Source: a virus. Taken from it: 30,713 nucleotides of DNA. The translations under genes and the position numbers were made by a program. Of this stretch, positions 14,661 to 26,574 are shown in pieces. Under the pieces are notes generated by a model. That model saw nothing but the letters and a program-made list of their open reading frames with translations, was not told the origin of the DNA and made no database searches. The stretch is from positions 1-30,713 of IMG/VR virus record IMGVR_UViG_3300013136_000310; one strand, written 5' to 3'. Within the stretch, counting starts at the first letter, position 1; every line of letters starts with the position of its first letter.

Positions 14661-14837
14661 TGGTGAGCTATTTTTTACGCTTTAAAATGCGATTTGCGGG
14701 GCTTTTTAGTGAATAGATGAGTATTACATCGGTTTTACTCCAAAAGTGGTTAAAATGCTTTTATTAGCATAAAATTGCTATTTTAAGCTATTTTATACTC
14801 TTATTTATACCATAGCTTGAAATACTTGACAAAAAAG

Positions 14838-14846
14838 TTATCCACA
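14838..14846 (+). promoter_or_regulatory. Perfect DnaA box TTATCCACA
   Basis: Matches the bacterial DnaA consensus at all nine positions. It lies 19 bp upstream of the -35 element at 14866. Two near-identical boxes sit 10 bp upstream of other promoters in this window (16845 and 20326), so it may be a promoter-regulating site as well as an origin element. Confidence 0.6.
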
Positions 14847-14865
14847 AGTGTTTAATATATAGGTA

Positions 14866-14894
14866 TTGACACAGATATTGCAATAGAATATAAT
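14866..14894 (+). promoter_or_regulatory. Sigma-70 promoter for the early plus-strand operon
   Basis: TTGACA at 14866-14871, 17-bp spacer, TATAAT at 14889-14894: consensus in both boxes. The expected start is near 14901, 40 nt before the first gene. The leader contains a small hairpin (AAATAG/CTATTT, 14913-14931) immediately before the ATG. Confidence 0.85.
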
Positions 14895-14943
14895 TGACTT
14901 AGATAATAAATTAAATAGTGGCTTGCTATTTTACAATTAAAAA

Positions 14944-15378
14944 ATGAAATACATAAATAATCCAAATACAAAATGCACTTGTAGCAATCCAAAACATCAC
15001 GCATTCTGGATTCTTAATAAAAAGAATATCATAACATCAATTAAAAGAATAATTGAAACTCAAAACATCAATTATCTTACAAAAGATTGTTATGATTTTC
15101 TACATAATTTATCAGGATTTATAGCTCATTATGATATAAACGGATTTATGGACTATTACAACAACATTGCATTATTAGTAAAAGATTTACAGAACAGCTC
15201 CGATTTATCAGATTTTGAAAGATATATAACAGATAAGTATTTTTCAGAAGGGGAACAAAAAATGTATTATGCAGACAAAGCAGAAGTATTGAAAAATATA
15301 AAAAGTATTGTTGACAAAATAAAAGTAAAAGAATTTCCAAAAACAATTTCTTATACTGAAAATATATTAGCAATATAA
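14944..15378 (+). CDS. First early-operon protein, unknown
   Basis: 144 aa, mainly helical. It begins with a small Cys/His cluster (TKCTCSNPKHHAFW, residues 9-22) that might bind zinc. No known domain recognised. The A-rich leader is typical of this operon, with no clear SD. Confidence 0.65.
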   Translation: MKYINNPNTKCTCSNPKHHAFWILNKKNIITSIKRIIETQNINYLTKDCYDFLHNLSGFIAHYDINGFMDYYNNIALLVKDLQNSSDLSDFERYITDKYFSEGEQKMYYADKAEVLKNIKSIVDKIKVKEFPKTISYTENILAI

Positions 15379-15379
15379 C

Positions 15380-15431
15380 AGATTTATAGCAAACATAATT
15401 TACAAGCCGAATTGTGTTTGCAATTAAATCT
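15380..15431 (+). promoter_or_regulatory. Nested intercistronic hairpin H1
   Basis: Outer stem AGATTTA/TAAATCT (15380-15386 with 15425-15431), inner 12-bp stem GCAAACATAATT/AATTGTGTTTGC (15389-15400 with 15410-15421, one G-U), loop of 9. It starts 2 nt after the stop of the first early gene. No U-tract, so more likely an RNA processing or stability element than a terminator. Confidence 0.65.
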
Positions 15432-15458
15432 ATTATAAAAATAGATTAGTTATTTAAC

Positions 15459-15513
15459 AATCAATACCTTTGGTAAATATAAATAATTAACCGAAGGTTT
15501 AGGCGGATTGATT
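15459..15513 (+). promoter_or_regulatory. Intercistronic hairpin H2 before gene 15525
   Basis: AATCAAT/ATTGATT (15459-15465 with 15507-15513) stacked on ACCTTTGGT/ACCGAAGGT (15466-15474 with 15490-15498, one G-U), with an 8-nt bulge TTAGGCGG. It lies 11 nt before the next ATG, so it could affect its translation. Confidence 0.6.
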
Positions 15514-15524
15514 ACAAAAAAAAT

Positions 15525-15842
15525 ATGAAAAAAACATTATCATTTTATGATTTTTGCGACGAGTGGGAAAAGTGGGAAGATAGAAAAAATACTTTTTCTT
15601 ATGAAGGAAAAAAAGCATTGTTTGAATATCTTGAAGAATACGAAGAAAGCACAGGGGAAGAGATAGAACTTGATATCATAGCATTATGCTGTGATTATAC
15701 AGAATATGAAAGCTTTGAAGAATTCAAAGCTGATTATTCAAACATTAAAACGCTGGGAGAATTACAAGATAGAACACAATACATACCAATTTATAACAAC
15801 GACGGAACGGAAAGTGAACGATTTATTATTCAAAACTTTTAG
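15525..15842 (+). CDS. Acidic protein, ArdA-like fragment or unknown
   Basis: 105 aa, strongly acidic. The middle reads YLEEYEESTGEEIELDIIALCCDYTEYESFEEF, which resembles short phage proteins (the ArdA/antirestriction-type acidic segment D-[IV]-x-A-x-CCxYxEYxxxxE). The C-terminus TQYIPIYNNDGTESERFIIQNF suits a short phage protein. A DNA-mimic or antirestriction role would fit the methyltransferases in the same operon, but the assignment rests on composition and a short pattern only. Confidence 0.6.
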   Translation: MKKTLSFYDFCDEWEKWEDRKNTFSYEGKKALFEYLEEYEESTGEEIELDIIALCCDYTEYESFEEFKADYSNIKTLGELQDRTQYIPIYNNDGTESERFIIQNF

Positions 15843-15852
15843 TTTATCCTTA

Positions 15853-15884
15853 TTACACAATAGCACCGCTTGGCTATTGTGTAA
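15853..15884 (+). promoter_or_regulatory. Perfect 12-bp intercistronic hairpin H3
   Basis: TTACACAATAGC (15853-15864) pairs with GCTATTGTGTAA (15873-15884) around loop ACCGCTTG, 10 nt after the preceding stop. No poly-T follows. Shares the ATAG...GCTTG...CTAT core with hairpins at 14915 and 18928. Confidence 0.7.
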
Positions 15885-15921
15885 AATAGGGGAAATTAAA
15901 GACACCTTGCACATTAAAAAA

Positions 15922-16161
15922 ATGAAAATAAAAGAATTGAAAAAAGAATTAAAAACAAAATTCAAAAAACTTTTTATAGATATAGAAAAAGATGAAAATG
16001 GTCAATGGCTTAATATATACAATTTTGAAAACAAAAAAGATATAATTGGGGTCAATGTATACGATAACACTATTAATCTGTATAATCTTGACTACAACGG
16101 TGATGATGCTTGGGAAGTAATTAATTTTTTGAGAGAAAATTATAATTTTAAATTAGAATAG
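15922..16161 (+). CDS. Small protein, unknown
   Basis: 79 aa from ATG 15922 after an A-rich leader; the open frame runs further left, through hairpin H3 and the previous gene, so the later start is chosen. A basic N-terminal helix (KELKKELKTKFKKLF) is followed by a strand-rich domain (WLNIYNFENKKDIIGVNVYDNTINLYNLD). No family recognised. Confidence 0.55.
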   Translation: MKIKELKKELKTKFKKLFIDIEKDENGQWLNIYNFENKKDIIGVNVYDNTINLYNLDYNGDDAWEVINFLRENYNFKLE

Positions 16162-16172
16162 TTATTTTTTAT

Positions 16173-16215
16173 CAAACCTCAAACAAGTTTACAAGGTGGC
16201 TTGGCTTGGGGTTTG
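16173..16215 (+). promoter_or_regulatory. Intercistronic hairpin H4
   Basis: CAAACC/GGTTTG (16173-16178 with 16210-16215) encloses CAAG/CTTG pairs. It lies between two small genes and is weaker than H1-H3. Confidence 0.45.
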
Positions 16216-16241
16216 AAATAAAGATAATTAAAAACAAAAAT

Positions 16242-16433
16242 ATGATAATAAAAAAAATAGGTGATATTACGATCTCGGTAGATGGTCGCAAAACAAACAA
16301 TCACAATGATAAAGATTTTTATGGCAAACGCAAAACAATGTATATTGCAAGTAAAAATGGGTGCGAGGGTTTTGATTATACAATAGAAAAAGCAATTAAA
16401 AACCTTGAAAATGTTTTGAAATTAAAAAAGTAA
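16242..16433 (+). CDS. Small basic protein, unknown
   Basis: 63 aa from ATG 16242; an upstream ATG at 16206 lies inside hairpin H4. Strands (IGDITISVDGRK ... KTMYIASKNG) are followed by a helix (TIEKAIKNLENVLKLKK). Length and layout resemble small phage accessory proteins. No domain recognised. Confidence 0.5.
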   Translation: MIIKKIGDITISVDGRKTNNHNDKDFYGKRKTMYIASKNGCEGFDYTIEKAIKNLENVLKLKK

Positions 16434-16468
16434 AATGTCGGATTATTATAATTAAATAAAATAAAAAA

Positions 16469-16618
16469 ATGAAAACATACACACACGAGATAATAAAAAA
16501 ACATAACACACAAACAAGAAATGCTAAAATGGCGAAAGCTCTTGAAATGTCGGCAGAAGCTATTACTGCTCTCGGCATTTTCGGACTTGGCTTTTTGTAT
16601 TTTCTTTTTGTGGTATAA
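16469..16618 (+). CDS. 49-aa single-TM protein
   Basis: ATG 16469 to TAA 16616-16618. A basic, polar N-terminus of about 28 residues is followed by one hydrophobic segment to the C-terminus (AITALGIFGLGFLYFLFVV). A C-terminally anchored small membrane peptide is likely. Spacing of 3 nt to the next ATG. Confidence 0.5.
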   Translation: MKTYTHEIIKKHNTQTRNAKMAKALEMSAEAITALGIFGLGFLYFLFVV

Positions 16619-16621
16619 AAA

Positions 16622-16747
16622 ATGAAAAAAATAAAAGTAAAAGTAAATAACAAAAAATATCTTATTATGCACGACAAAGATATTTTACATATTTACGAAA
16701 TTATAAACAAGAAAGGAGCTGGTAAATTAGTATTTAAAAGACAATAA
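16622..16747 (+). CDS. 41-aa basic protein, unknown
   Basis: ATG 16622 (MKKIKVKVNNKKYLIM...) to TAA 16747. Lysine-rich, probably a small alpha/beta peptide. It is packed between two membrane peptides, one base before the next ATG, which supports translation. Confidence 0.4.
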   Translation: MKKIKVKVNNKKYLIMHDKDILHIYEIINKKGAGKLVFKRQ

Positions 16748-16748
16748 T

Positions 16749-16844
16749 ATGATTTTAAAACTTATTTTATTGGGTTTGGTGGTGGCTCTTTGGGTAGCCC
16801 ACGCTTGGCACAAGTCAAGTGATGTTATAGACAATATACAATAG
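16749..16844 (+). CDS. 31-aa single-TM peptide
   Basis: ATG 16749, TAG 16842. One N-terminal hydrophobic helix (MILKLILLGLVVALWVAHAW) and a short polar tail with aspartates. Same length and plan as the peptide at 18202. Such peptides can be holin-, toxin- or exclusion-type; none can be assigned. Confidence 0.5.
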   Translation: MILKLILLGLVVALWVAHAWHKSSDVIDNIQ

Positions 16845-16892
16845 TTATACACAGGTTAGGGTATTGCATTTGGTATTGCAATATGCTATAAT
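16845..16892 (+). promoter_or_regulatory. Promoter with upstream DnaA-like box (second of three)
   Basis: TTATACACA (16845-16853), 10 bp GGTTAGGGTA, TTGCAT (-35, 16864-16869), 17-bp spacer, TATAAT (16887-16892). The same order and 10-bp spacing are seen at 20326-20373. It drives the gene at 16959. Confidence 0.75.
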
Positions 16893-16912
16893 AGAATTAG
16901 AACATTAAAAAT

Positions 16913-17267
16913 ATATCTACTGATGGGGGAATAAGACACGAGGAGAAAAAATAAAAAAATGTTAGATTACAAATTTATTGAACTTATGTTCGTAAAATAC
17001 AGCAAACATTTACAAGATGTTGTTGCAAGTATTGAAACATTAGTTGACAATTACGATAAACAAATTATTCCCTTACAAAAAATAAATGATCCTTCAAAAT
17101 ATGGAGGACGCATAAAAGAGTTAGAAGCAAAAAAGGCAGAGGCATTTAAAAAACTCTCCGATGTTTGCCCCAACATAGAAAAAATGAGGCAACAACTTTC
17201 TGAAATACAAGAATTTATTTCAGAATAATTAAACTAAACTCTTGTCCGTTTCCCCATCAGTAGATAT
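16913..17267 (+). repeat. 16-bp perfect inverted repeat enclosing one gene
   Basis: The arm at 16913-16928 (ATATCTACTGATGGGG) is the exact reverse complement of 17252-17267. They flank the RBS and whole coding region of the 89-aa gene. Pairing continues over GGAA/TTTC with a bulged G. In the mRNA the leader and the trailer could close into one helix. Confidence 0.75.
16959..17228 (+). CDS. 89-aa coiled-coil protein, unknown
   Basis: Two long helices (residues 1-45 and 50-89) with heptad-like hydrophobics; LEAKKAEAFKKLSDV and MRQQLSEIQEF. No domain recognised. It is one of the few genes here with a visible SD (GAGGAG at 16940-16945, 13 nt from ATG, rather long). Expressed from its own promoter and framed by the inverted repeat. 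Confidence 0.65.
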   Translation: MLDYKFIELMFVKYSKHLQDVVASIETLVDNYDKQIIPLQKINDPSKYGGRIKELEAKKAEAFKKLSDVCPNIEKMRQQLSEIQEFISE

Positions 17268-17500
17268 GGGTTGTCTTGGTTGAAGGTTTTAGGGTTGCCT
17301 TGTTGATAACATATAATAAGAATAAACGCCCACGCTGGCGACTTCGGTCAAAAGATTTACTCTTATTAGTTAGATACTCGGCAATACCGCCTTATTAGTG
17401 GGACTTTATGACAAAAGACAACAACACTCGCCTTTACGGCTCGGTTTTAGGGCTTTTGCCGAATAACATAAAGCCTGTAATATAATTAAATAATAAAAAA
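17229..17500 (+). ncRNA. Candidate structured RNA A, 272-nt gene-free segment
   Basis: No ORF above 30 codons on the plus strand. Pairings seen: GTTGTCTT/AAGACAAC (17270-17277 with 17415-17422), enclosing AATAAGA/TCTTATT (17315-17321 with 17361-17367); inside that, CGCC/GGCG (17327-17330 with 17337-17340) or the overlapping UUCG tetraloop hairpin GAC-TTCG-GTC (17340-17349). Also GG(A)CTTTATG/CATAAAGCC (17401-17410 with 17467-17475). No separate promoter found; it probably sits on the transcript from 16899. Confidence 0.4.
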
Positions 17501-17501
17501 T

Positions 17502-17738
17502 ATGAAAATAACAAAAAAAGAAGCATATTGTTCTTATTATAAAAAGTCGGAAACTATAACTTTTGAAATAGAGTTTGAAGACGGAAAAACGGAAGAATTA
17601 GAAATTACTTGTTGGGTTGTTGAAAGCGATATAGAAACAGACGCAGGAAAAGATTTAAGTGAAGAAAGTCAAAAAGTTTATGACTCTTTGACAGAAGAAC
17701 AACAACAAGAAATTGACAATTTTATTTTGGAATTATAA
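17502..17738 (+). CDS. 78-aa acidic protein, unknown
   Basis: Beta-strand start (ETITFEIEFEDGKTEELEITCWVV) followed by an acidic helical tail (LSEESQKVYDSLTEEQQQEIDNFILEL). No family recognised. A-rich leader, no SD. Confidence 0.55.
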   Translation: MKITKKEAYCSYYKKSETITFEIEFEDGKTEELEITCWVVESDIETDAGKDLSEESQKVYDSLTEEQQQEIDNFILEL

Positions 17739-17754
17739 TTAAATAATTAAAAAA

Positions 17755-17952
17755 ATGAATAAAGAACTTAAACAAGCAATAATAAAATGGGTTATAGAGA
17801 ACGAAAATGCTTTGCAATTAACCAATGACACAACAAACCAATTCAAAGCATATATTTTTGATGAAAAAGGAGAATGGCTTATAGGAGGTCAAGAAATTTC
17901 AAATTTTATTGATAAATTTATAGACCTATACACAGAGTATGAACCTTTATAA
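17755..17952 (+). CDS. 65-aa acidic protein, unknown
   Basis: A helix, a short strand pair (KAYIFDEKGEWLIGGQ) and a helix ending in DLYTEYEPL. 16 nt after the previous gene. No domain recognised. Confidence 0.5.
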   Translation: MNKELKQAIIKWVIENENALQLTNDTTNQFKAYIFDEKGEWLIGGQEISNFIDKFIDLYTEYEPL

Positions 17953-17959
17953 TTAACTC

Positions 17960-18162
17960 GTGGTATTTTGCAAGTGGTGGGCAATATTTTCTATTTTTGC
18001 CTATCTATACTCATCGACCAGTATAGAAAAGGTTTTAGTTTCTTGCCTACCGCTTGCAGAATGCCACCAGACGCTTAAAAATAGGGCTACAATCAATTAT
18101 TAGGTGGCGAGCAACAATGTGAAGCGTAGGAACAACGCAATAGCACAAGACGCTCTTAATTG
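17960..18162 (+). ncRNA. Candidate structured RNA B with 25-bp hairpin
   Basis: 17960-17984 pairs with 18043-18067 over 25 consecutive positions: 21 Watson-Crick and 4 G-U pairs in plus-strand RNA (these would be A-C mismatches in minus-strand RNA). Inside it, CTATACT/AGTATAG (18005-18011 with 18020-18026) forms an apical hairpin. A second nested domain follows: CAATTA/TAATTG (18094-18099, 18157-18162), GAGC/GCTC (18109-18112, 18152-18155), TGTG/CACA (18118-18121, 18144-18147), GCGT/ACGC (18124-18127, 18135-18138). No ORF in the segment. Confidence 0.6.
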
Positions 18163-18201
18163 CCTCCCTTGAATGAAAGCATAAGCCATCACCCAAAACC
18201 T

Positions 18202-18297
18202 ATGATTTTATTATTAATACTCTTTTTCTTAATATCTCTCTTGTGCTTGTTAGTTTCAATAAGACACGCAAAAGAGATAACAGACTACGAGATATGA
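18202..18297 (+). CDS. 31-aa single-TM peptide, twin of 16749
   Basis: ATG 18202, TGA 18295. Hydrophobic helix MILLLILFFLISLLCLLV, then a short charged tail (RHAKEITDYEI). Same length and layout as the peptide at 16749. It ends one base before the next gene's ATG. Confidence 0.5.
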   Translation: MILLLILFFLISLLCLLVSIRHAKEITDYEI

Positions 18298-18298
18298 A

Positions 18299-18568
18299 AT
18301 GACAGAAATTGAAAAAGAACAACACGATTTACGCACACTCTCAAAAGAAGCTACGCAAGAATATGAAATTTATATGAAGTCTCACGCAGAAGCTCCAGAC
18401 TATGAAGATTATTGTCAAGCTCAAAGTTTAGAAGAAGCCTCAGAAATATTTGCAATTAGATTAAATAGGGTTTATGCTCAATATGATAGTGAAAGCGACG
18501 AAACATATGAAGGCGACTGGGACGCAAGAGATTTGATAGATTTTGTAAGAAAAGTTGACCCCTCTTGA
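18299..18568 (+). CDS. 89-aa acidic protein, unknown
   Basis: Very acidic helical protein (HDLRTLSKEATQEYEIYMKSHAEAPDYEDYCQA ... SESDETYEGDWDARDLIDF). The charge pattern resembles DNA-mimic or antirestriction proteins, but no motif proves it. The stop overlaps the -35 box of the promoter at 18565. Confidence 0.6.
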   Translation: MTEIEKEQHDLRTLSKEATQEYEIYMKSHAEAPDYEDYCQAQSLEEASEIFAIRLNRVYAQYDSESDETYEGDWDARDLIDFVRKVDPS

Positions 18569-18594
18569 CACGCACATATACAATTTGCTATAAT
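18565..18594 (+). promoter_or_regulatory. Sigma-70 promoter for structured leader C
   Basis: TTGACA (18565-18570), 18-bp spacer, TATAAT (18589-18594). It starts transcription near 18601, directly into an attenuator-like structure and then 400 nt without a gene. Confidence 0.75.
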
Positions 18595-18612
18595 GGCTAT
18601 AACACTTAATCT

Positions 18613-18673
18613 TGTAACGGGGATTGAGGGTGAAAATCTCTCCCTTTCCGTTACAGGGGAGGGATTTTTGTTT
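18613..18673 (+). terminator. Attenuator-like terminator with competing antiterminator stem
   Basis: Terminator form: AAAATCTCTCCC (18633-18644) pairs with GGGAGGGATTTT (18657-18668, one G-U), loop 12 nt, followed by TTTTTGTTT. Competing form: TGTAACGG (18613-18620) with CCGTTACA (18648-18655). The second arm of the latter lies in the terminator loop and the terminator's first arm lies in its loop, so the two exclude each other. It begins about 12 nt after the predicted start of transcription. Confidence 0.65.
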
Positions 18674-18995
18674 ATCACCAATACTGATGGGAAATCGTAG
18701 GCGAACCTATTAGCGACTCATCAGAAGCCATTAAATAATAGGATAAAGGGGGGAAACTTCACTCACGAGTTGGCGACACCCTTATCGTATAAATCGTTAA
18801 GTTGAATTTCTTTTGCGATTTATAGATTACGCATTGTGGGGGCAACCATAAGACCTATGCAATGTAGAGTTAAGAAATGTTATTGCCGATAAAATAGCGG
18901 ACAAACAATAACTAAACACCAAAAGTAATAGCTTGCTATGGCTTTGGGGGTATTCTTATCTTCAAGTTGGAAAGCCCCCTTGACAAGTAAGCAAT
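18674..18995 (+). ncRNA. Candidate structured RNA C (read-through of the attenuator)
   Basis: No ORF of note. Consecutive helices: CTGATG/CATCAG (18684-18689, 18719-18724) around TAGG-CGAA-CCTA; an alternative CCTATTA/TAATAGG (18706-18712, 18736-18742); GATAA(A)GGG/CCCTTATC (18742-18750, 18779-18786); TATAAATCG/CGATTTATA (18788-18796, 18816-18824); GTTATTG/CAATAAC (18879-18885, 18906-18912); ATAG-CTTG-CTAT (18928-18939); GGGGG/CCCCC (about 18946-18950 with 18975-18979). This suggests an RNA rather than broken genes. Confidence 0.4.
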
Positions 18996-18999
18996 AACT

Positions 19000-19071
19000 A
19001 TGAATAAAATAGAATTAAAAGAGTTTGAATTAAAATTAAGACAAAAAAAATTAGAACAAGCACAACATTAA
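19000..19071 (+). CDS. 23-codon peptide, doubtful
   Basis: ATG 19000 to TAA 19069, a Lys/Glu/Leu-rich helix (MNKIELKEFELKLRQKK...). Placement before another small gene 5 nt on makes it possible, but the length is too small for confidence. Confidence 0.3.
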   Translation: MNKIELKEFELKLRQKKLEQAQH

Positions 19072-19076
19072 AAAAT

Positions 19077-19223
19077 ATGAATAAAGATTTAAAAGAAATT
19101 ATATCAACAACAGTGTTTATCATAATATTTATTTTAATTTTAATACAAGGATTTGTATTTTTTAACTCTTTAATAAGTGAAAAAAGGCAAAACTTTGAAA
19201 AAATTATTAACTATAAATTATGA
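19077..19223 (+). CDS. 48-aa single-TM protein
   Basis: ATG 19077, TGA 19221 overlapping the next ATG (ATGA). Hydrophobic helix at residues 12-34 (VFIIIFILILIQGFVFF), then a charged tail. Coupling to the next TM gene suggests a pair of small membrane proteins. Confidence 0.55.
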   Translation: MNKDLKEIISTTVFIIIFILILIQGFVFFNSLISEKRQNFEKIINYKL

Positions 19224-19417
19224 ATTATAAAGAAGTAAAAGAAAATTTAAATGCTATAATGATAATTATAATGGGTTTGGGTTCGGTTATATTTTTAGCA
19301 TATTGTTTATTAGTCGGTTTTGATTTTGTTTTTGAAGAGTATAACACAGCAAAAAAAGAATGCCTTAATGGTAATCAAAAAATGTGTAAATATTTAGATA
19401 TTTATTTTATTAAATAA
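19220..19417 (+). CDS. 65-aa TM protein
   Basis: N-terminal 10 polar residues, TM segment about 12-36 (AIMIIIMGLGSVIFLAYCLLVGFDFVF), then a tail with CLNGNQKMCKYL whose cysteines could bind or form a disulfide. Coupled by ATGA to the 48-aa TM gene. Function unknown. Confidence 0.6.
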   Translation: MNYKEVKENLNAIMIIIMGLGSVIFLAYCLLVGFDFVFEEYNTAKKECLNGNQKMCKYLDIYFIK

Positions 19418-19441
19418 TATAAGCGTAATTAAAAAATATGT

Positions 19442-19675
19442 ATGAGCTTAATATCAAAATACATAAGAAATCGTCAGTTAAGATTGATTAAAGAAGGAAG
19501 ATGTAAAATTTGTGGTAAAAAAAGGAATTGTTTTAGTAAGATTTATTGTTTAGAACATTTAATAAAACAAAGAAAGCACAGACAAAATTCTTATTGGAAA
19601 CATCGTAAAAAAACACTGGCTCGGCAAGCTAAATGGAGAAAAACCCATCCGAAGTGGTGGAGAAAGTATAACTAA
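19442..19675 (+). CDS. 77-aa basic zinc-knuckle protein
   Basis: CKICGKKRNCFSKIYCLEH (residues 21-39) gives a C-x2-C...C-x2-H site, followed by a strongly basic Arg/Lys/His/Trp tail (KHRQNSYWKHRKKTLARQAKWRKTH). Looks like a small nucleic-acid-binding protein of the type common in phages. ATG at 19442 overlaps another ATG at 19438 out of frame. Confidence 0.6.
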   Translation: MSLISKYIRNRQLRLIKEGRCKICGKKRNCFSKIYCLEHLIKQRKHRQNSYWKHRKKTLARQAKWRKTHPKWWRKYN

Positions 19676-19687
19676 TAACATAAAACT

Positions 19688-20320
19688 ATGTTAGATATAG
19701 AAAAAATTAAAAATACTATCATACAAGGCGATTGTTTGGAAGTTATGAAACAGATACCAGATAAGAGTGTGGATTTAGTGCTTACTGATTTTCCTTATGG
19801 AGTAAATTATGAATACGATACTTGGGTTGATACCCCAGAAAATCTTACAGAATTGATAAAGAAAGCAATGCCTGAAATTTTAAGAATTGGCAAAAGAGTT
19901 ATTCTTACTTGTGGACATACTAATATATGGAAATATCCAGAAGCAAATTGGATAATGGCGTGGGTAAATCCAGCAGGAGCAAATAGAAATTCTTGGGGAT
20001 TTACTTGTTGGCAACCGATACTTTGCTATGGAAAAGATGTTTATTTAGCAAATGGTTTAGGTGCAAGACAAGATATTATAATTCATAATGAAACTTCTGA
20101 AAAGTGGGGACATAGTTGTCCTAAGCCAATAGAATTTTGGAAAAAATTACTTTTAAGAGGAAGTATAAAAGAAAATGACACTATTCTTGACCCATTTCTC
20201 GGCTCTGGCACAACCGCAGTCGCCTGCAAACAATTAAAACGCAACTTCATAGGAATTGAAATATCAGAAAAGTATTGCGAGATAGCCAGACAAAGATTAA
20301 GGCAAGAGGTATTGTTATAA
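19688..20320 (+). CDS. DNA adenine/cytosine-N4 methyltransferase (N6_N4 type, DFPY)
   Basis: 210 aa, compact beta-class amino-methyltransferase (PF01555 type). Catalytic motif IV is DFPY (34-37), a variant of DPPY, near the N-terminus; motif I DPFLGSGTT (168-176) is near the C-terminus, followed by NFIGIE (186-191). It would methylate adenine N6 or cytosine N4 in a specific site, probably to shield phage DNA from restriction. The Phe in place of the first Pro is seen in some phage enzymes. The start follows the zinc-knuckle gene by 12 nt. Confidence 0.85.
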   Translation: MLDIEKIKNTIIQGDCLEVMKQIPDKSVDLVLTDFPYGVNYEYDTWVDTPENLTELIKKAMPEILRIGKRVILTCGHTNIWKYPEANWIMAWVNPAGANRNSWGFTCWQPILCYGKDVYLANGLGARQDIIIHNETSEKWGHSCPKPIEFWKKLLLRGSIKENDTILDPFLGSGTTAVACKQLKRNFIGIEISEKYCEIARQRLRQEVLL

Positions 20321-20325
20321 ACAAC

Positions 20326-20373
20326 TTATCCACTTTTAGGGGTATTGCAATGGGGGGTAAAATATGATATAAT
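20326..20373 (+). promoter_or_regulatory. Promoter with upstream DnaA-like box (third of three)
   Basis: TTATCCACT (20326-20334), 10 bp TTTAGGGGTA, TTGCAA (-35, 20345-20350), 17-bp spacer, TATAAT (20368-20373). Same order and spacing as at 16845. The expected start of transcription, about 7 nt after the -10, is 20380, exactly where the terminal helix of RNA D begins. Confidence 0.8.
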
Positions 20374-20379
20374 AGTAGT

Positions 20380-20620
20380 ATAGAGTATTTAATGGTCGGT
20401 GCTTCAAACCAGATTTAGCTACTGGGGGATAGGCGAATTGACGCCAGATGACCTAACCAAGGTGCAACTGAAACTAAACCTTCAACGTAAGGGCGGTGGT
20501 GTGTAGGGTATGAGTAATGCTCAGAGAGTACCCACAAAACAGAGATTGCACATAGGAAGCAGTAATTTCTTATAAAGGACTTCTGCTGTACTTGCAAGCA
20601 CCGAGTATTAAGCACTCTAT
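20380..20620 (+). ncRNA. Structured RNA D, 241 nt, closed by a long terminal helix
   Basis: Starts at the predicted +1 of the promoter at 20326-20373. 20380-20404 pairs with 20596-20620 over 25 positions: ATAGAGT/ACTCTAT, one mismatch, 7 pairs (two G-U), one mismatch, TCGGTGCTT/AAGCACCGA. Nested inside: GTGCAACTG/CAG(AGA)TTGCAC (20462-20470 with 20540-20551), which encloses GGGTA/TACCC with TGAG/CTCA at its tip and TGTG/CACA at its base. Separate hairpins: GGCG/CGCC near 20432 and AGCAG/CTGCT near 20570. No sensible plus-strand ORF. No matching known RNA class recognised. Confidence 0.65.
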
Positions 20621-20658
20621 TAAAGACGCAAAACATAATAATTAACTTTAAACAAACT

Positions 20659-20829
20659 ATGCCTGCGAAACCATACGAAACAACTATAAGAAGAAATAAT
20701 GCTCTCTACACATTATACAAAGCTGGGTTTGACCATAAATGGATATACACAGAAGTATTCAAGATGAACAAAGCCAACTTTTATAGTGTAGTGAGAAAAG
20801 CAAAATGTCAGGAGAAGCAAGAGAAATAA
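20659..20829 (+). CDS. 56-aa HTH DNA-binding protein
   Basis: ATG 20659, TAA 20827. Basic start then ALYTLYKAGFDHKWIYTEVFKMNKANFYSVVRKAK, the spacing of a helix-turn-helix as in sigma region 4 and small phage regulators. It overlaps the YopX gene by 25 nt in another frame. It follows RNA D directly and may be expressed from the same promoter. Confidence 0.6.
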   Translation: MPAKPYETTIRRNNALYTLYKAGFDHKWIYTEVFKMNKANFYSVVRKAKCQEKQEK

Positions 20830-21176
20830 AATTTAGAGCGTGGGATAAAAGAGAGAAAATATTAGTTTATGACAATGAAAATAATTCAACTGATTATTGG
20901 GATGGAGTAATGGCGTCAGAAATTGGATTGTTAAATTCATTATTAGATAATAAAGAATATATCTTAATGCAATACACAGGATTAAAGGATTATCATAAAA
21001 AAGAAATTTACGAAGGGGATATTGTAAGATTTTTAGAAACAAGTGGTTATGATTTTGAAGAGATTGTAGAAAATATGTGGGATATTAGAGACCATTGTTG
21101 GGACAAAAATGTTGATTATGAAGATATAAAAGTCATCGGCAACATTTACGAAAATAAAGAATTATTAAATAAATAA
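20805..21176 (+). CDS. YopX family protein
   Basis: 123 aa. The family signature is complete: REIKFRAWDKREKIL at residues 6-20, LMQYTGLKDYHKKEIYEGDIV near 54-74, and the end VIGNIYENKELL. YopX proteins are frequent in phages and prophages. Their function is not known. The start ATG lies inside the HTH gene. Confidence 0.9.
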   Translation: MSGEAREIKFRAWDKREKILVYDNENNSTDYWDGVMASEIGLLNSLLDNKEYILMQYTGLKDYHKKEIYEGDIVRFLETSGYDFEEIVENMWDIRDHCWDKNVDYEDIKVIGNIYENKELLNK

Positions 21177-21180
21177 AACT

Positions 21181-21435
21181 ATGAGTGCAATAAAAGAAAC
21201 AGTCATTGCCTGTAAGCAATGCAAACGAAAATATGTAAATATAGAAACTCAAGGCGAGATATGCGACAGTTGTCAGCAAGAAATGATGTCAGAAGCCAAC
21301 CTATATTCTGCTCTAAAAGAAACACGATTACAGTTTAGTAATATGAGTATATCAAAAATAGCTAAAACAATTAAACAAATCTTTGATAACGCTGAAATAA
21401 AAGCTCTAATCAAAGATTTAGAAAATGGCATATAG
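21181..21435 (+). CDS. 84-aa zinc-ribbon protein
   Basis: CKQC (11-14) and CDSC (28-31) form a four-cysteine zinc ribbon, followed by a helical region with no recognised domain. It overlaps the next gene by 11 nt. Confidence 0.6.
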   Translation: MSAIKETVIACKQCKRKYVNIETQGEICDSCQQEMMSEANLYSALKETRLQFSNMSISKIAKTIKQIFDNAEIKALIKDLENGI

Positions 21436-21736
21436 TCCACAAGATAAATTAGATTTCGCAATTAAAGATGCAAAATACAGTATAGGAATGAGCAGGGGTA
21501 ATTCTCTTGCTTGTGCTACTCAATTAGCTTGTGCTTTAATTGAAAAAGCATTACTTAAACAGGATAACTTTGAAGACTTTGTTTATATGTACGCAGACAA
21601 ATTTCATCACTTTAATCAAGTTAGCATAGACCAGGATTTTCAATCTTGGATTGAGATTAATAAACCAAAACTTTTAGAAGAATTAGGAATAGTAGATTTT
21701 GAAAAAAACATAATTCAAGAAGGTGCAAAGTTATGA
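21425..21736 (+). CDS. 103-aa helical protein, unknown
   Basis: Helical throughout (DKLDFAIKDAKYSIGMSRGNSLACATQLACALIEKALL...). No family recognised. The stop overlaps the start of the small membrane gene (ATGA), and the start lies in the zinc-ribbon gene. Confidence 0.6.
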   Translation: MAYSPQDKLDFAIKDAKYSIGMSRGNSLACATQLACALIEKALLKQDNFEDFVYMYADKFHHFNQVSIDQDFQSWIEINKPKLLEELGIVDFEKNIIQEGAKL

Positions 21737-21837
21737 AACAAGAAACAGTAGAAACAATAATGATTCTTAGTTTTATATTTAATTGTATAATTACATTTTG
21801 TATGGTTGGAATATTTGCTAAAATATTAAGTTTATGA
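21733..21837 (+). CDS. 34-aa single-TM peptide
   Basis: ATG 21733 to TGA 21835, overlapping both neighbours by ATGA junctions (21733-21736 and 21834-21837). One hydrophobic helix, IMILSFIFNCIITFCMVGIF. The double coupling strongly suggests that it is translated. Confidence 0.6.
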   Translation: MKQETVETIMILSFIFNCIITFCMVGIFAKILSL

Positions 21838-22373
21838 TTATTGAAGCTATCCACGATTATTACAATACTCCACGAGATAAAAAAAGAGTTGTTGGTAGAT
21901 ACTACGCTTCTGAAATAAGTTCTATTATTAAAGGATATATAACCACAGGGAACTATTTTACTCAACGCATAGCAGACAAGAAAGGACAAGCTAATATGTT
22001 TAGGGGTTCTGCTATGGAAGACCACTTAGTCAAAGTCTTGAAAGAACAAAAAGTAGAATTTACCACACAAGACCCTATTGAGCTTAAGATTAAAGACTTT
22101 GTAATATCTGGTAAATTAGACTTTAACTTTAAAGATTATATCGTAGAAACAAAATGCCCTGAGAATATCACAAATGGTGTCCCTGATAAGTGGAAATGCC
22201 AAATGGAATGTTATTACAGGGCAACTAATAAAAAAGTTTATCTGGGAATATTTGATAAAGTTGGTGAACACATTATTCGCTTCTTTCCTTATGAGCCTTC
22301 GGACTTGTTATGGGAAGAAATAAAAACCAAGATATCAGATTTTCACAGAAGATTAAAAAAGAAATATGAATAA
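21834..22373 (+). CDS. PD-(D/E)XK nuclease, RecB/Cas4-like
   Basis: 179 aa. The core is in order: RGSAMEDHL (57-65) with Glu62, the catalytic Asp in GKLDF (93-97), IVETK (103-107) with E105-x-K107, and the QMECYYRA helix (about 126-133). That is the PDDEXK_1 pattern used by RecB, lambda exonuclease-like and Cas4-like nucleases. The C-terminal iron-sulfur cysteines of Cas4 are not seen, and no cas genes are near. A phage recombination or host-DNA degradation nuclease is the best reading, supported by the RusA gene downstream. Confidence 0.8.
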   Translation: MIIEAIHDYYNTPRDKKRVVGRYYASEISSIIKGYITTGNYFTQRIADKKGQANMFRGSAMEDHLVKVLKEQKVEFTTQDPIELKIKDFVISGKLDFNFKDYIVETKCPENITNGVPDKWKCQMECYYRATNKKVYLGIFDKVGEHIIRFFPYEPSDLLWEEIKTKISDFHRRLKKKYE

Positions 22374-22605
22374 AATATGTTCAAAATGTCAAAGAGCAAT
22401 GGTGCTAAGAAATAGTGCAAGGGGTCAATTCTATGGTTGCTCTGGCTATCCTAATTGCAAGAACACAGAACCTCTTGAAGGTTCAAAACCAAGTGGTGGT
22501 AATCCTAATGGTGGTATGGAAATTATTGGAGAAATTTTGTCAGATATTCAAGTAAAGGTAAACGCTATCTATAATATTATTAACAAGGAAATACCACAAG
22601 AGTAA
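22366..22605 (+). CDS. Stand-alone topoisomerase-type zinc ribbon protein
   Basis: 79 aa. CSKCQRAMVLR ... GQFYGCSGYPNCKNT (residues 5-34) is the zf-C4_Topoisom module found at the C-terminus of topoisomerase I, here alone. A Gly/Pro/Asn linker and a helix follow. It overlaps the nuclease by 8 nt. It might deliver the nuclease to single-stranded DNA; that is inference. Confidence 0.75.
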   Translation: MNKICSKCQRAMVLRNSARGQFYGCSGYPNCKNTEPLEGSKPSGGNPNGGMEIIGEILSDIQVKVNAIYNIINKEIPQE

Positions 22606-22653
22606 TTAAAAACCCCTTAAAACGCAAATTTAAGCGTTTAGGAGCATTTTAAA

Positions 22654-22953
22654 ATGATATATGAAATCAAACAGCTGGAGTGGAAGGGCAAAATTCCTTA
22701 CGCTTCAGTCAGAGACTACATTGCTAAAGACCACATATCCAAGAAAAAAACTCTAAGAATAGTGTTCAATAACTTTTATATGGACTTAAATCCAACTCAA
22801 CTAAAGAAACATACTGTTATCATAGCTAATAAAATTAAAAGTATTGTTTATCCAGACCAGTATTACTATATTTACTCTTACAAGTGGTCTCCGAAAGATT
22901 GGAAAAAAGAAGAAGCAGAATTAAAAGATAAAATAGAAAAAGGTATTTATTAA
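22654..22953 (+). CDS. 99-aa basic protein, unknown
   Basis: Tyr/Lys-rich, mixed alpha/beta (YEIKQLEWKGKIPYASVRDYI ... YYYIYSYKWSPKDWKKEEAEL). A good SD (GGAG at 22641-22644) lies 9 nt before the ATG and next to a small AAACGC/GCGTTT hairpin. No family recognised. Confidence 0.6.
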   Translation: MIYEIKQLEWKGKIPYASVRDYIAKDHISKKKTLRIVFNNFYMDLNPTQLKKHTVIIANKIKSIVYPDQYYYIYSYKWSPKDWKKEEAELKDKIEKGIY

Positions 22954-22964
22954 ACTAAAAACTT

Positions 22965-23129
22965 ATGGACAAAAAACAAGACATCTGTTATGTTTCAGAA
23001 AAAATAACAATCATAAGACCACAGCTTAAGAATAAGATTTTTAATGAAGAAGATTATAAGATAATTCAGACTTATGATGAGAATGGAGACAAAGTAGTCT
23101 GGCTAAGAGCCAAAGTAGAAAAAAATTAA
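22965..23129 (+). CDS. 54-aa protein, unknown
   Basis: ATG 22965, TAA 23127. Strand-rich with charged turns (ICYVSEKITIIRPQL ... TYDENGDKVVWLRAKV). No family recognised. Confidence 0.5.
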   Translation: MDKKQDICYVSEKITIIRPQLKNKIFNEEDYKIIQTYDENGDKVVWLRAKVEKN

Positions 23130-23142
23130 AAGATATAAAAAT

Positions 23143-23283
23143 ATGAAAATAATACAAATAATTTATTGTGGTAATAAAATAGCTGGATTAGACGAAGATG
23201 GAAATTTATACGAATGGTATCCTGATAAATATAATATTTATGGCAGTAGTGGAAAATGGATTTTATGTAATGTTAATTATTAA
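23143..23283 (+). CDS. 46-aa protein, WD-like short beta module
   Basis: ATG 23143, TAA 23281. Reads KIIQIIYCGNKIAGLDEDGNLYEWYPD ... GKWIL: a pair of strands with a D-E-D-G-N-L-Y-E-W turn, as in one blade of a beta-propeller. The protein at 24161 has the same plan (ALTNMGNIFYWKE). Function unknown. Confidence 0.5.
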   Translation: MKIIQIIYCGNKIAGLDEDGNLYEWYPDKYNIYGSSGKWILCNVNY

Positions 23284-23294
23284 ATAAAACTAAA

Positions 23295-23414
23295 ATGTCC
23301 ATCTTAAACTTCTTAAAAGCAATCTTCACATTTGATATCTGCGACTTAGCAAACCTTGACTGGAAGCTAAGTGATAAAGATGTGGAGGAAATAAATAAAC
23401 AGCTATTCAAATGA
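23295..23414 (+). CDS. 39-aa peptide, unknown
   Basis: ATG 23295, TGA 23412, overlapping the methyltransferase start (ATGA). MSILNFLKAIFTFDICDLANLDW... has a short hydrophobic start. Translational coupling to the next gene supports it. Confidence 0.5.
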   Translation: MSILNFLKAIFTFDICDLANLDWKLSDKDVEEINKQLFK

Positions 23415-24004
23415 AACATTACAAAAGCGTATTTGAAAACGAGCAAGAATTACTAAAATCATTGATTGATATTCATTTACAAGGAAAAGATATTGAATGC
23501 GACCCAATGTATTTTAAAGGTAATTTTTACAAAGACGGAGTAAATAAGCCAAAATACAAATTTGATATAAACCCACAAGTAAAAGATTGCGAAAAATGGG
23601 ATGCTTGTAATTTAAGGTTAAAAGTAGGTTTGGGAAAATTAAATAATTTAATACTTGACCCACCATTTTTATTCGGAATACACGGAAAGACAAAAGATTA
23701 TTATTCAAGCAAAACTCATACAATTTATAAAGATTTTAACAATTTAAAAAGTGATTATTATTCTTTATTGTGCGAAGCAATGGCATCACTAAAAAAAGGC
23801 GGAATACTTATTTTCAAATGCCAAGATTATACAGATAGCAAGACAACAATGACGCACGCATTAGTTTATAATTGGGCTAATGAAATAGGATTTTATGCAA
23901 AGGATTTAGCGATATTAGTGAAGCCGAATAAGATTTACAATGGAAATACAGCTCAAAGACACCTTAGAAAGATACATACATATTTCTGGGTGTTTAAAAA
24001 ATAA
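23411..24004 (+). CDS. DNA methyltransferase-like protein (DPPF)
   Basis: 197 aa. Motif IV-like LILDPPFLFG (80-89), preceded by an N-terminal region with ECDPMYFKG, then ASLKKGGILIFKCQD (strand 5) and a C-terminal basic segment LRKIHTYFWVFKK. A clear FxGxG SAM loop is not seen; the fold may be permuted or reduced. The N6_N4/MT-A70-like group is the nearest recognised. It may be a DNA or RNA adenine methyltransferase, or a catalytically reduced relative. Confidence 0.6.
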   Translation: MKHYKSVFENEQELLKSLIDIHLQGKDIECDPMYFKGNFYKDGVNKPKYKFDINPQVKDCEKWDACNLRLKVGLGKLNNLILDPPFLFGIHGKTKDYYSSKTHTIYKDFNNLKSDYYSLLCEAMASLKKGGILIFKCQDYTDSKTTMTHALVYNWANEIGFYAKDLAILVKPNKIYNGNTAQRHLRKIHTYFWVFKK

Positions 24005-24006
24005 CC

Positions 24007-24027
24007 TCTCCTTAATGCCAGAGGAGA
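24007..24027 (+). promoter_or_regulatory. SD-sequestering hairpin, first copy
   Basis: TCTCCT (24007-24012) pairs with AGGAGA (24022-24027), loop of 9 nt. The 3' arm is the SD sequence of the gene starting at 24034. The second copy is at 24348 with one covarying pair. Confidence 0.7.
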
Positions 24028-24033
24028 AAGAAA

Positions 24034-24159
24034 ATGAATAAAAAGAAAAACAAAAGAAAGAAAGTAAAAGTTGTTAAAAAGTATTATCCTACAACAGATA
24101 ATACAACAACATATAATCCCGACTGGGATAAAGATTATAAAATTAAAATAATTTCTTAA
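24034..24159 (+). CDS. 41-aa very basic peptide
   Basis: ATG 24034, TAA 24157. The N-terminus is almost all Lys/Arg (MNKKKNKRKKVKVVKKYY), then a Thr/Asn/Asp-rich tail. SD AGGAG at 24022 with 7-nt spacing. Probably RNA- or DNA-binding. Confidence 0.5.
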   Translation: MNKKKNKRKKVKVVKKYYPTTDNTTTYNPDWDKDYKIKIIS

Positions 24160-24160
24160 T

Positions 24161-24328
24161 ATGAAAGAAAAAATCATACAAATTTCTATTTCAGATTCAC
24201 GATTATATGCACTTACGAATATGGGCAATATATTTTATTGGAAAGAAAAAATTATAAGCAAAAATGGGGAATTAGTAAAAGAGATTTATGGGTGGGTGAA
24301 ATATGATTTACCTTCTTTCAAAGATTAG
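24161..24328 (+). CDS. 55-aa protein, WD-like short beta module
   Basis: ATG 24161, TAG 24326. IIQISISDSRLYALTNMGNIFYWKEK has the same layout as the product of 23143, so these may be divergent copies. The end of the gene and the following 40 nt resemble the end of the gene at 24376. Confidence 0.5.
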   Translation: MKEKIIQISISDSRLYALTNMGNIFYWKEKIISKNGELVKEIYGWVKYDLPSFKD

Positions 24329-24347
24329 TCCATTACAAACTTTAACC

Positions 24348-24368
24348 ACTCCTCAATGACAGAGGAGT
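24348..24368 (+). promoter_or_regulatory. SD-sequestering hairpin, second copy
   Basis: ACTCCT (24348-24353) pairs with AGGAGT (24363-24368), loop of 9 nt. The outer pair is A-U here and U-A in the first copy, so the stem is conserved while the sequence changed. The SD AGGAG lies 8 nt before ATG 24376. Confidence 0.7.
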
Positions 24369-24375
24369 CAAAGTA

Positions 24376-24597
24376 ATGAATAAAGAGATAATAAAACTTC
24401 TATCTATACTTATGGAGAATGAAACGGATAGGCAAATATATCACAAAGAAATCTCTATGTTATTCGGAATGTTAAAAAATAATTTATACCAACCAATAAG
24501 TAATTGTAAAGAATTAATAAATGGTAAAGAAAAAATATCTTATCACGATTGGAATATGAGAGAGCACGGAAAATGCTTTTGCAGTTTAGAAGATTAG
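24376..24597 (+). CDS. 73-aa protein, unknown
   Basis: Helical start (MNKEIIKLLSILMENETDRQIYHKEISMLFGML), then a polar end with HDWNMREHGKCFCSLED. No family recognised. It has an SD inside the second hairpin copy. Confidence 0.55.
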   Translation: MNKEIIKLLSILMENETDRQIYHKEISMLFGMLKNNLYQPISNCKELINGKEKISYHDWNMREHGKCFCSLED

Positions 24598-24640
24598 CCC
24601 CTTACAAACTTAGTTAAGAGTGTGGTGGGTTCATATTGGT

Positions 24641-24858
24641 CGGATATGGGGACGGATAAAGTCATTCCACTTAGATATAATGTACATATCAAGATGGTTA
24701 GTCCCGAACGTATCCGCCCATTACGAGTCCATCACAAGTGGTGGGTTGGTGGGGGAAATAGTGTGGACGAGAACTGTCAACAGAAAAGGCAACACGCCTC
24801 AGTATAAATACTAAACTCGTAGAGGCAATGCGGAGTTCAAATTCTCTGCTTTCCCCAC
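24641..24858 (+). ncRNA. Candidate structured RNA E with tRNA-like 3' half
   Basis: No credible gene in 24598-24890. Domain 1: CGGATA/TATCCG (24641-24646, 24711-24716) with GGGAC/GTCCC (24649-24653, 24701-24705) and apical CTT-A-GATAT/ATATC-AAG (24670-24678, 24686-24693). Domain 2: GTGG(G)GGAAA/TTTCCCCAC (24749-24758, 24850-24858) closes a junction with ACGAG/CTCGT (24767-24771, 24816-24820) and a 6-bp arm GCGGAG-TTCAAATT-CTCTGC (24830-24849) stacked directly on the outer stem, like a T arm on an acceptor stem. No anticodon arm, so not a normal tRNA. Confidence 0.45.
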
Positions 24859-24890
24859 AAGCCCATCACAATTATTAACCAAATAAAACT

Positions 24891-25172
24891 ATGGAAGATT
24901 TAGATAATTATATTTTATGTCAAAAATGTCAAACAGACCCTTGTGAGTGCAAAGAGCCACCCACAATGCAGAAGAATTGGGTTGAAGGACTACAAAACAT
25001 TTTATCACAAGACAGAATAAAAACTGCTTATACTGATGAGATTATAGCTTTTATCCACCAGCAAATAGAAAAAGCCAGAGCAGAAGAGAGGGAAAAGATT
25101 TTTATAGAAATTGAGAAATTGGTTGAAGGTGGACAGAGAATAATTACAGAAATAAAAAATAAGTTTGAATGA
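24891..25172 (+). CDS. 93-aa protein with Cys cluster
   Basis: An N-terminal CQKCQTDPCEC (10-20) may bind a metal. The remainder is helical (YTDEIIAFIHQQIEKARAEEREKIFIEIEKLVEGGQRIITEI). Similar short Cys motif-plus-helix proteins occur in phages as assembly or regulatory factors. The stop overlaps rusA (ATGA). Confidence 0.6.
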   Translation: MEDLDNYILCQKCQTDPCECKEPPTMQKNWVEGLQNILSQDRIKTAYTDEIIAFIHQQIEKARAEEREKIFIEIEKLVEGGQRIITEIKNKFE

Positions 25173-25540
25173 AAGAGTACAACTTCACCTTGCTCGGGCA
25201 GATCCCAGCAAAAAAGAATAATTACAGATTTGGTAAAAATAGATTTTATAATGCTAAGCAAAAAGAATTAGACGAGTTTATATTAGATTTAACAAACCAA
25301 AGAAACAATTATGATGCAAGGGACGACTTTCCAATAAAAACTCAATGTGAGCTAAATTTGGAGCTTTGGCAAGGAGATAGAACAGACTTAGACAATCAAA
25401 TTACTACTATTTGTGATTTATTACAAAATTCAGGCATTATTGCTAATGATCGTCAGATCAAGCACATAATAGCCCACAAGGTCGTTGAAAATAATAAGCC
25501 AATAGTACATATAACATTATTTGATAACATAAAATTATAA
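25169..25540 (+). CDS. rusA: RusA-type Holliday junction resolvase
   Basis: 123 aa. The family core is complete: IPAKKNNYRF near 12-21, D70 and TDLDNQITTICDLLQNSGI (72-90) with D73 and D75, and D94 in IANDRQIKHI, the acidic residues that bind magnesium. RusA resolves branched DNA in phage recombination and replication. The PD-(D/E)XK nuclease upstream and this gene would form a DNA-processing pair. Confidence 0.9.
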   Translation: MKEYNFTLLGQIPAKKNNYRFGKNRFYNAKQKELDEFILDLTNQRNNYDARDDFPIKTQCELNLELWQGDRTDLDNQITTICDLLQNSGIIANDRQIKHIIAHKVVENNKPIVHITLFDNIKL

Positions 25541-25557
25541 TTAAAAACAATAAAAAT

Positions 25558-25743
25558 ATGGAATTTAATAAAACATATTACGAAGAAAAAAAACAAAAGT
25601 TAATTCAAAAAAATCAAAGATTAATGCAAGAGCATATAAATAACTCATTAAAGTTTGCAGAAGATGTAAGAGAGCTTAATCAAGACTTGCAAGAAATAGA
25701 AAAAGCACTTGCAGAAAAAGTAGAAACAAAAGAAAAAAAATAA
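25558..25743 (+). CDS. 61-aa coiled-coil protein
   Basis: One continuous Lys/Glu/Gln helix with heptad hydrophobics. No other motif. It ends directly before the next ATG. Confidence 0.5.
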   Translation: MEFNKTYYEEKKQKLIQKNQRLMQEHINNSLKFAEDVRELNQDLQEIEKALAEKVETKEKK

Positions 25744-25827
25744 ATGGTTTATAAAAATCCAGATATAGCTATTCTTCTTAAAAAAAGATTGAATATGGGA
25801 AGACTATTTTTTGGATTTAAAAAGTAA
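25744..25827 (+). CDS. 27-codon peptide
   Basis: ATG 25744 follows the previous stop with no gap and ends with no gap before the next ATG. MVYKNPDIAILLKKRLNMGRLFFGFKK is basic and partly amphipathic. Probably translated by coupling. Confidence 0.4.
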   Translation: MVYKNPDIAILLKKRLNMGRLFFGFKK

Positions 25828-26004
25828 ATGCAAGATACAAAACCTAAAAAAATCTGCTGTATCTGGTGTGGGAAAGAAATGCCAGAAATGAATAAATTAA
25901 AGTTATGTAGTGATGAATGTCTTGAAAAATATAGAATGGCGTATTATAATTCATACAATAAATCATTAAAAAAAATATATGACAATAGAACAACTTCAAG
26001 TTGA
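25828..26004 (+). CDS. 58-aa zinc-ribbon protein
   Basis: ATG 25828, TGA 26002. CCIWCG (10-15) and LCSDEC (26-31) form a C-x2-C...C-x3-C zinc site, as in the FCSxxCR-type fingers. It overlaps the next gene by 26 nt. Confidence 0.55.
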   Translation: MQDTKPKKICCIWCGKEMPEMNKLKLCSDECLEKYRMAYYNSYNKSLKKIYDNRTTSS

Positions 26005-26113
26005 ATTAGACGAAATAAACAAAGAAATCTCTGCATTAAGAGACAAAGCTATGAAAATTGTAGGTAAAATGGAATTGCTTGCAGAACAGAAAAAGCAGGA
26101 AAAACCTGCTTAA
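25979..26113 (+). CDS. 44-aa coiled-coil peptide, last early gene
   Basis: ATG 25979, TAA 26111. A single helix (MTIEQLQVELDEINKEISALRDKAMKI...). It ends the plus-strand operon just before the promoter/terminator pair at 26118-26206. Confidence 0.5.
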   Translation: MTIEQLQVELDEINKEISALRDKAMKIVGKMELLAEQKKQEKPA

Positions 26114-26117
26114 AGTA

Positions 26118-26146
26118 TTGACAGTTATACTTGTTTATGATAAGAT
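26118..26146 (+). promoter_or_regulatory. Sigma-70 promoter for a very short transcript
   Basis: TTGACA (26118-26123), 17-bp spacer, TAAGAT (26141-26146; a near-consensus -10). The expected start is near 26153, only about 30 nt before the terminator stem. The transcript would be about 54 nt and contains an SD-like AGGA followed 6 nt later by ATG TAA. Confidence 0.6.
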
Positions 26147-26180
26147 ATAGATAGGAACGATAAATGTAAGAGCTTTTCAG

Positions 26181-26206
26181 CCACCCGTAAGGGTGGTCTT
26201 TGTTTT
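26181..26206 (+). terminator. Rho-independent terminator between convergent operons
   Basis: CCACCC-GTAA-GGGTGG (26181-26196), perfect 6-bp stem with a GTAA (GNRA) tetraloop, then TCTTTGTTTT. Stops plus-strand transcription; in minus-strand RNA the same hairpin lacks a good U tract. Confidence 0.85.
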
Positions 26207-26351
26207 AGCGAGACGACCACAACATCAACGCAGTAATTAAAATCATTACAATTACACATATATGATTTATATATTTTTCAATAAAACATATAAACCATTC
26301 AGACCATCTGTGTTTCCAATGGTTCAACTTTTCTTTATTTATTTCACTCAC
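26205..26351 (-). CDS. 48-aa single-TM protein, lysis-module candidate
   Basis: GTG at 26351 overlaps the stop of the upstream holin-like gene; TAA at 26205. MSEINKEKLNHWKHRWSEWFICFIEKYINHICVIVMILITALMLWSSR: a polar N-terminus, then a hydrophobic C-terminal segment. Placed after a holin-like gene, it could be a second holin or a spanin part. The start codon is uncertain because no SD fits well. Confidence 0.4.
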   Translation of the reverse strand: MSEINKEKLNHWKHRWSEWFICFIEKYINHICVIVMILITALMLWSSR

Positions 26352-26541: not shown

Positions 26542-26550
26542 TTATTTATG

Positions 26551-26574
26551 CTAACCATTATGTGTTTTGGTTAG
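26551..26574 (-). promoter_or_regulatory. Hairpin between methyltransferase and holin-like genes
   Basis: CTAACCA/TGGTTAG (26551-26557 with 26568-26574), 7 bp perfect, loop of 10 nt, immediately downstream of the methyltransferase stop on the minus strand. Probably a processing or translation element; no T tract. Confidence 0.5.

Follow-up and report, generated by a model that had tools for sequence, protein, structure and literature searches.

Within the window analysed here, a viral record 30,713 bases long (IMGVR_UViG_3300013136_000310), the sequence from position 20380 onward has about an even chance of being the structured leader at the 5′ end of a transcript that covers part of the early operon and reads into the genes downstream. 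An economical reading is a predicted leader of 279 nt on a transcript that would come from an internal early promoter. The promoter match, a long helix, the position of that helix and the absence of a recognisable terminator were obtained directly by computation, and they are set out below together with three competing explanations of the same stretch of DNA.

Genome context and likely host

The entire window is contained in a second IMG/VR record, IMGVR_UViG_3300013131_000083 (43,700 bases), at 99.95% identity with 14 mismatches. The final 100 bases of this longer record reappear close to its start, which points to a direct terminal repeat of ~123 nt, and we read the record as a putatively complete phage genome of ~43.6 kb. 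The late genes, including those for the capsid (7096–8067) and the terminase (11779–13323), are on the minus strand, and the early genes, including those for a methyltransferase, YopX, a RusA-like protein and a Cas4-like nuclease, occupy the plus strand from ~14.9 to ~26 kb. ARAGORN found no tRNA and no tmRNA in the window.

The late genes also include a NeuB-type synthase, a sugar epimerase and a glycosyltransferase (L034, 10664–12646; window, 5650–6801), which suggest glycan functions and provide a hint of the host. Among the matches listed for the phage sugar epimerase, the nearest were Woesearchaeota genes (77–78%), followed by a Staskawiczbacterium gene (66%). Taken together with the bacterial sigma-70 type of the promoters, this similarity makes a Patescibacterium the likeliest host, and the phage probably infects a member of this group of tiny bacteria, which have been little studied. 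To our knowledge, little is known about the transcription signals and RNAs of Patescibacteria phages.

Promoter and closing helix

The sigma-70 promoter given in a preliminary description of this DNA (TTGCAA-17-TATAAT) was found on the plus strand at 20345..20373, matching 10 of the 12 consensus bases, and it carries in addition an extended −10 element (TGn, here TGA ahead of the −10 box; TGNTATAAT at 20365). The −10 box is 7 nt from 20380, the first base of the helix and the predicted transcription start, and the earlier claim that the transcript starts at the helix base is thus well supported by the sequence. A scan of 14500–26600 returned three plus-strand sites that combine TGn with 10 or more matches (at 18565, 20345 and 26118), so that placement of one of them by chance at the right distance from the helix is unlikely; by our own estimate, a promoter would fall at exactly this distance about once in a thousand cases.

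Signals of the same type were sought in the likely host order. When 247 genomes of the order to which the Staskawiczbacterium genome belongs were searched with the DNA of the region, the −10/start segment was among the best matches, with weak E-values; by our own reading of the sequence, the matched segments lie just ahead of apparent genes, including ribosomal protein L10-like and signal peptidase-like genes, and the matches may be regarded as supportive only. In 60 genomes of the order, the consensus extended −10 promoter gave ~31 matches compared with 3 for the reversed control, an enrichment that favours the leader reading.

The two arms of the closing helix, at 20380..20404 (5′ arm) and 20596..20620 (3′ arm) on the plus strand, form a 25-nt inverted repeat with 84% complementarity. 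As had been claimed, 23 of the 25 positions are paired (21 Watson–Crick and 2 G·U), and the two mismatches are one A·C and one of another kind. The score of this helix is 44, compared with 15.9 ± 3.1 when the start was fixed at 20380 and the downstream sequence was shuffled (n = 2000, maximum 31), and none of the 2000 shuffles matched it. The mean pairing probability was ~0.97 in transcripts of 241, 341, 450 and 801 nt.

When the start was left free, 100 shuffles of the 12-kb early region gave a maximum helix score of 34.8 ± 3.3, with a 95% point of 41 and a largest value of 45; this null for helix maxima has a span limit of 340 nt and is built on early-region sequence rather than on the whole genome. 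A strong promoter lying beside an accidental inverted repeat would gain some support from these values, as a few per cent of the shuffles contain a helix of nearly this strength at some position. At the promoter-fixed start, however, no shuffle was as good, and the genome contains six such helices, with four of those in the early region scoring above the 95% point of the null maximum; coincidence is accordingly a very improbable explanation.

The two inverted ends could also belong to an element acting at the DNA level, either a MITE-like insertion bounded by terminal inverted repeats of 25 bp or a site for replication or regulation that includes a DnaA box. They do flank a gene-free stretch of 241 bp, and the DnaA-like box of the preliminary description is present at 20326 with one mismatch. 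That box, however, is one of 19 such one-mismatch sites in the window, where 11 are expected, and is therefore not special here. The stretch occurs as a single copy in the genome, no clear target-site duplication was seen by eye, and the promoter fits one end to the base. An element of this kind is improbable.

Fold energy of the enclosed domain

The fold z-score, put forward earlier as a check on the RNA, was low for the full 241-nt RNA (−74.5 kcal/mol, z −3.44; z −3.2 in a second run) but not for its interior. Without the arms, the enclosed 191-nt domain (20405..20595, plus strand) gave a z-score of +0.08, with 100 of 200 shuffles folding equally well or better. The value of about −3.4 for the whole RNA thus stems from the closing helix, and the nested interior helices, which had been taken as a signal, are what any sequence of the same composition yields. 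For the reverse strand the z-score was almost as low (−2.9), which a long inverted repeat leads one to expect, and the choice of strand therefore rests on the promoter and not on energy.

No plus-strand ORF longer than 35 aa lies inside the domain, and a 73-aa minus-strand ORF that crosses it looks spurious, in agreement with the original statement that there is no gene inside. As to the 241-nt RNA that had been proposed, its 5′ end fits the promoter, but its 3′ end at 20620 is assumed and is unmarked by a terminator.

Downstream genes and the predicted leader

A DNA methyltransferase gene (19688..20320, plus strand; Pfam PF01555, PHROG 67) lies immediately upstream of the region. Downstream, a 56-aa ORF (20659..20829, plus strand), which is HTH-like by eye and has no Pfam match, would follow the leader. 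Its ATG is 38 nt past the closing helix, and its end overlaps the next co-directional gene, which is of the YopX family (20805..21176, plus strand; Pfam PF09643, E 5e-20). In the scan of 14500–26600, no terminator-like site was found on the plus strand from 20620 to 26180, and the terminator-like plus-strand sites that the scan did find lie elsewhere, at 18641–18664 and 26180–26197. The lack of a terminator after 20620, the co-directional ORF 38 nt further on and the presence of terminators elsewhere make a structured 5′ leader simpler than the stable ncRNA that the preliminary description had offered as the simplest reading. The arrangement fits that of an operon leader, with a promoter directly upstream, a co-directional gene downstream and no terminator between. 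Overall, the promoter, the closing helix and the gene-free domain withstood the analysis, whereas the interior-fold signal and the priority given to a stable ncRNA did not.

The less favoured reading is a stand-alone, trans-acting ncRNA of ~241 nt that has its own promoter and is trimmed at the closing helix; we consider it doubtful and place it second to the leader reading. The closing helix begins at the predicted 5′ end and bounds a neat gene-free domain, further gene-free and strongly folded islands are present in the same genome, and other phage-encoded structured RNAs have no known role, ROOL and GOLLD among them (PMC12286853). On the other hand, with no terminator a separate RNA would require processing, the interior folds no better than shuffled sequence, there is no Rfam match, and no diverged homologue was found, hence no sign of conservation.

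The leader reading is favoured by the TGn promoter lying exactly 7 nt ahead of the helix, by a helix far above chance at the fixed start and robust in transcripts of up to 801 nt, by the plus strand free of terminator-like sites from 20620 to 26180, by an ORF whose start falls outside the fold, and by the uniform orientation of every gene from ~14.9 to 25.7 kb. Against it, ~240 nt without a gene is long for a leader in such a compact phage, the helix stops well short of the ORF start so that the fold gives no sign of acting directly on translation, and transcripts in the host may end by means other than intrinsic terminators.

We infer transcription, read-through, protection and processing from these features as follows. 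A transcript would begin at ~20380, from a promoter inside the early plus-strand operon, and would read through the 56-aa ORF and the YopX gene and on into those that follow. Its first 25 nt would pair with 20596–20620 to form a 23-bp helix, burying the 5′ end of the RNA and sealing a domain of ~190 nt while leaving the ribosome-binding region open. The most likely action would be in cis, the buried 5′ end shielding the mRNA against 5′-end-dependent decay. A cut by RNase III at the helix could also free the enclosed RNA and create a new mRNA 5′ end. At 23 pairs, or about two helical turns, the helix is close to the shortest stem that RNase III cuts, judging by the processing stems of T7 early mRNA and rRNA, so that a leader and an excised RNA could both hold.

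Comparison with known RNAs and homologue searches

The claim that the RNA falls in no known class held: Rfam 15 gave no match at the gathering score or at E up to 10, and this includes the 6S RNA (SsrS) models. RNase P, tmRNA and SRP RNA had looked similar by eye and were dropped, as Rfam supported none of them at E up to 10. The long closing stem and the promoter of its own recall 6S RNA, but 6S RNA forms a single rod whose large central bubble imitates an open promoter, whereas the phage RNA is predicted to adopt a multi-branched fold.

Messenger RNAs of the ompA type are stabilised by a 5′-terminal stem-loop, and the predicted phage transcript would likewise have a base-paired 5′ end ahead of co-directional genes; this likeness is predicted from sequence, and the phage stem differs in being long-range, closing around ~190 nt and not around a small loop. 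Stems processed by RNase III are known in T7 early mRNA and in rRNA precursors, and share with the phage case a helix of ~20–25 bp, a polycistronic early transcript and an enclosed longer RNA. By contrast, the phage helix lies at the very 5′ end, the enclosed RNA lacks a signal of a defined fold, and cleavage here is a prediction. ROOL and GOLLD resemble the phage RNA as phage-encoded structured RNAs, but are much larger, have covariation-supported folds and often lie near tRNA genes (PMC12286853), compared with 241 nt and no tRNA genes here. With this length, no Rfam match and no diverged homologue, the RNA was not assigned to either family.

The sole homologue found, in IMGVR_UViG_3300013131_000083, is 100% identical over the 241 nt and therefore gives no covariation information on the closing helix. 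Searches with blastn against phages and plasmids returned only short chance matches, and four exact RNA patterns run across IMG/VR had the identical copy as their sole real match; the other pattern loci were checked by blastn and nhmmer, and part of them also with R1, a covariance model derived from the pair of identical sequences. The best extra match of R1 (L214/L215, 3758–3842) is inside a coding ORF and was attributed to chance, and in a search of 380 genomes from the phylum that includes genome G002 the model found nothing credible. Searches with neighbouring proteins (the 56-aa ORF, terminase, methyltransferase and nuclease) recovered the twin phage or distant methyltransferases only, and the terminase had no match in the genome contigs and weak partial matches only in the 380 genomes. 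The lack of diverged relatives is bounded by the collections searched and by sensitivity and is not proof that none exists. The sequence of 20380–20620 is new and unmatched, and it is ordinary in kind; the phage that carries it is poorly known.

Other regulatory-looking sites and long-range helices

Several other sites look regulatory. At 18565–18995, a consensus TTGACA-18-TATAAT promoter with TGn is followed by two mutually exclusive hairpins (GTAACGG/CCGTTAC and the terminator at 18641–18664) in an attenuator-like arrangement, and then by a further gene-free folded stretch; a match to a PyrR site was below threshold. At 24003–24038 and 24336–24378, similar short hairpins (CCTCT/AGAGG and CTCCTC/GAGGAG) pair Shine–Dalgarno-like GAGGAG sequences before start codons, and are perhaps translational switches. 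At 26118–26205, a TTGACA-17-TAAGAT promoter with TGn is followed about 35 nt later by the terminator at 26180–26197, an arrangement resembling that of a gene whose RNA product would be ~50 nt long.

A long-range helix scan of the longer record found six plus-strand helices scoring at least 43: 17946–18081 (57.5), 10687–10890 in the late region (49), 24621–24736 (46), 16913–17269 (44.5), the helix at 20380–20620 (44) and 24738–24869 (43). Apart from the helix analysed here, four close gene-free stretches and one, 16913–17269, surrounds a short ORF; the other RNA islands have no detectable sequence kinship with 20380–20620. In the five helices that remain when the late one is left out, G·U pairs outnumbered A·C mismatches by 16 to 4 (p 0.006), an excess that is only suggestive of pairing maintained in early-strand RNA because the helices were picked by plus-strand score, which is a bias.

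The island at 17946–18081 is gene-free and is closed by a long-range helix stronger than any other in the genome, with 25 consecutive pairs (4 of them G·U) and a loop region of 58 nt; the segment 17951–18290 folds at z −6.95, and a TATAAT lies just upstream of the island with no recognisable −35 box. Two adjoining helix-closed domains at 24621–24869 have in common GTGGTGGGTT on the 5′ side and CCATCAC on the 3′ side, as if duplicated, and 24600–24885 folds at z −5.4. The second of these domains has the look of a tRNA-like T-arm, for which ARAGORN and Rfam give no support. At 16913–17269, a helix of 19–21 bp encloses a whole short ORF (16959–17228) with weak similarity to XhlA. The 204-nt helix-closed island at 10687–10890, between two late genes, gave a z-score of −4.5 on one strand and −5.7 on the other and has a terminator-like plus-strand hairpin beside it (10897–10920). 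It was considered as a second case of promoter, helix and terminator and dropped, as the scan gave no promoter; a −10-like box there overlaps the start codon of an opposite-strand gene.

The battery of helix-closed domains in this probable Patescibacteria phage (20380–20620, 17946–18081, 24621–24736, 24738–24869, 16913–17269 and 10687–10890) might represent a hitherto unrecognised class of terminally sealed RNAs, excised or folded, that act in infection, a proposal that we consider unlikely. The coincidence, to the base, of a promoter with a long sealing helix gives this phage a specific predicted start site and leader that can be put to the test. The pattern of six helices is of more interest than the 20380–20620 RNA alone, and if the several similar helices prove to be processed RNAs, early genes would be controlled at a further, new level.
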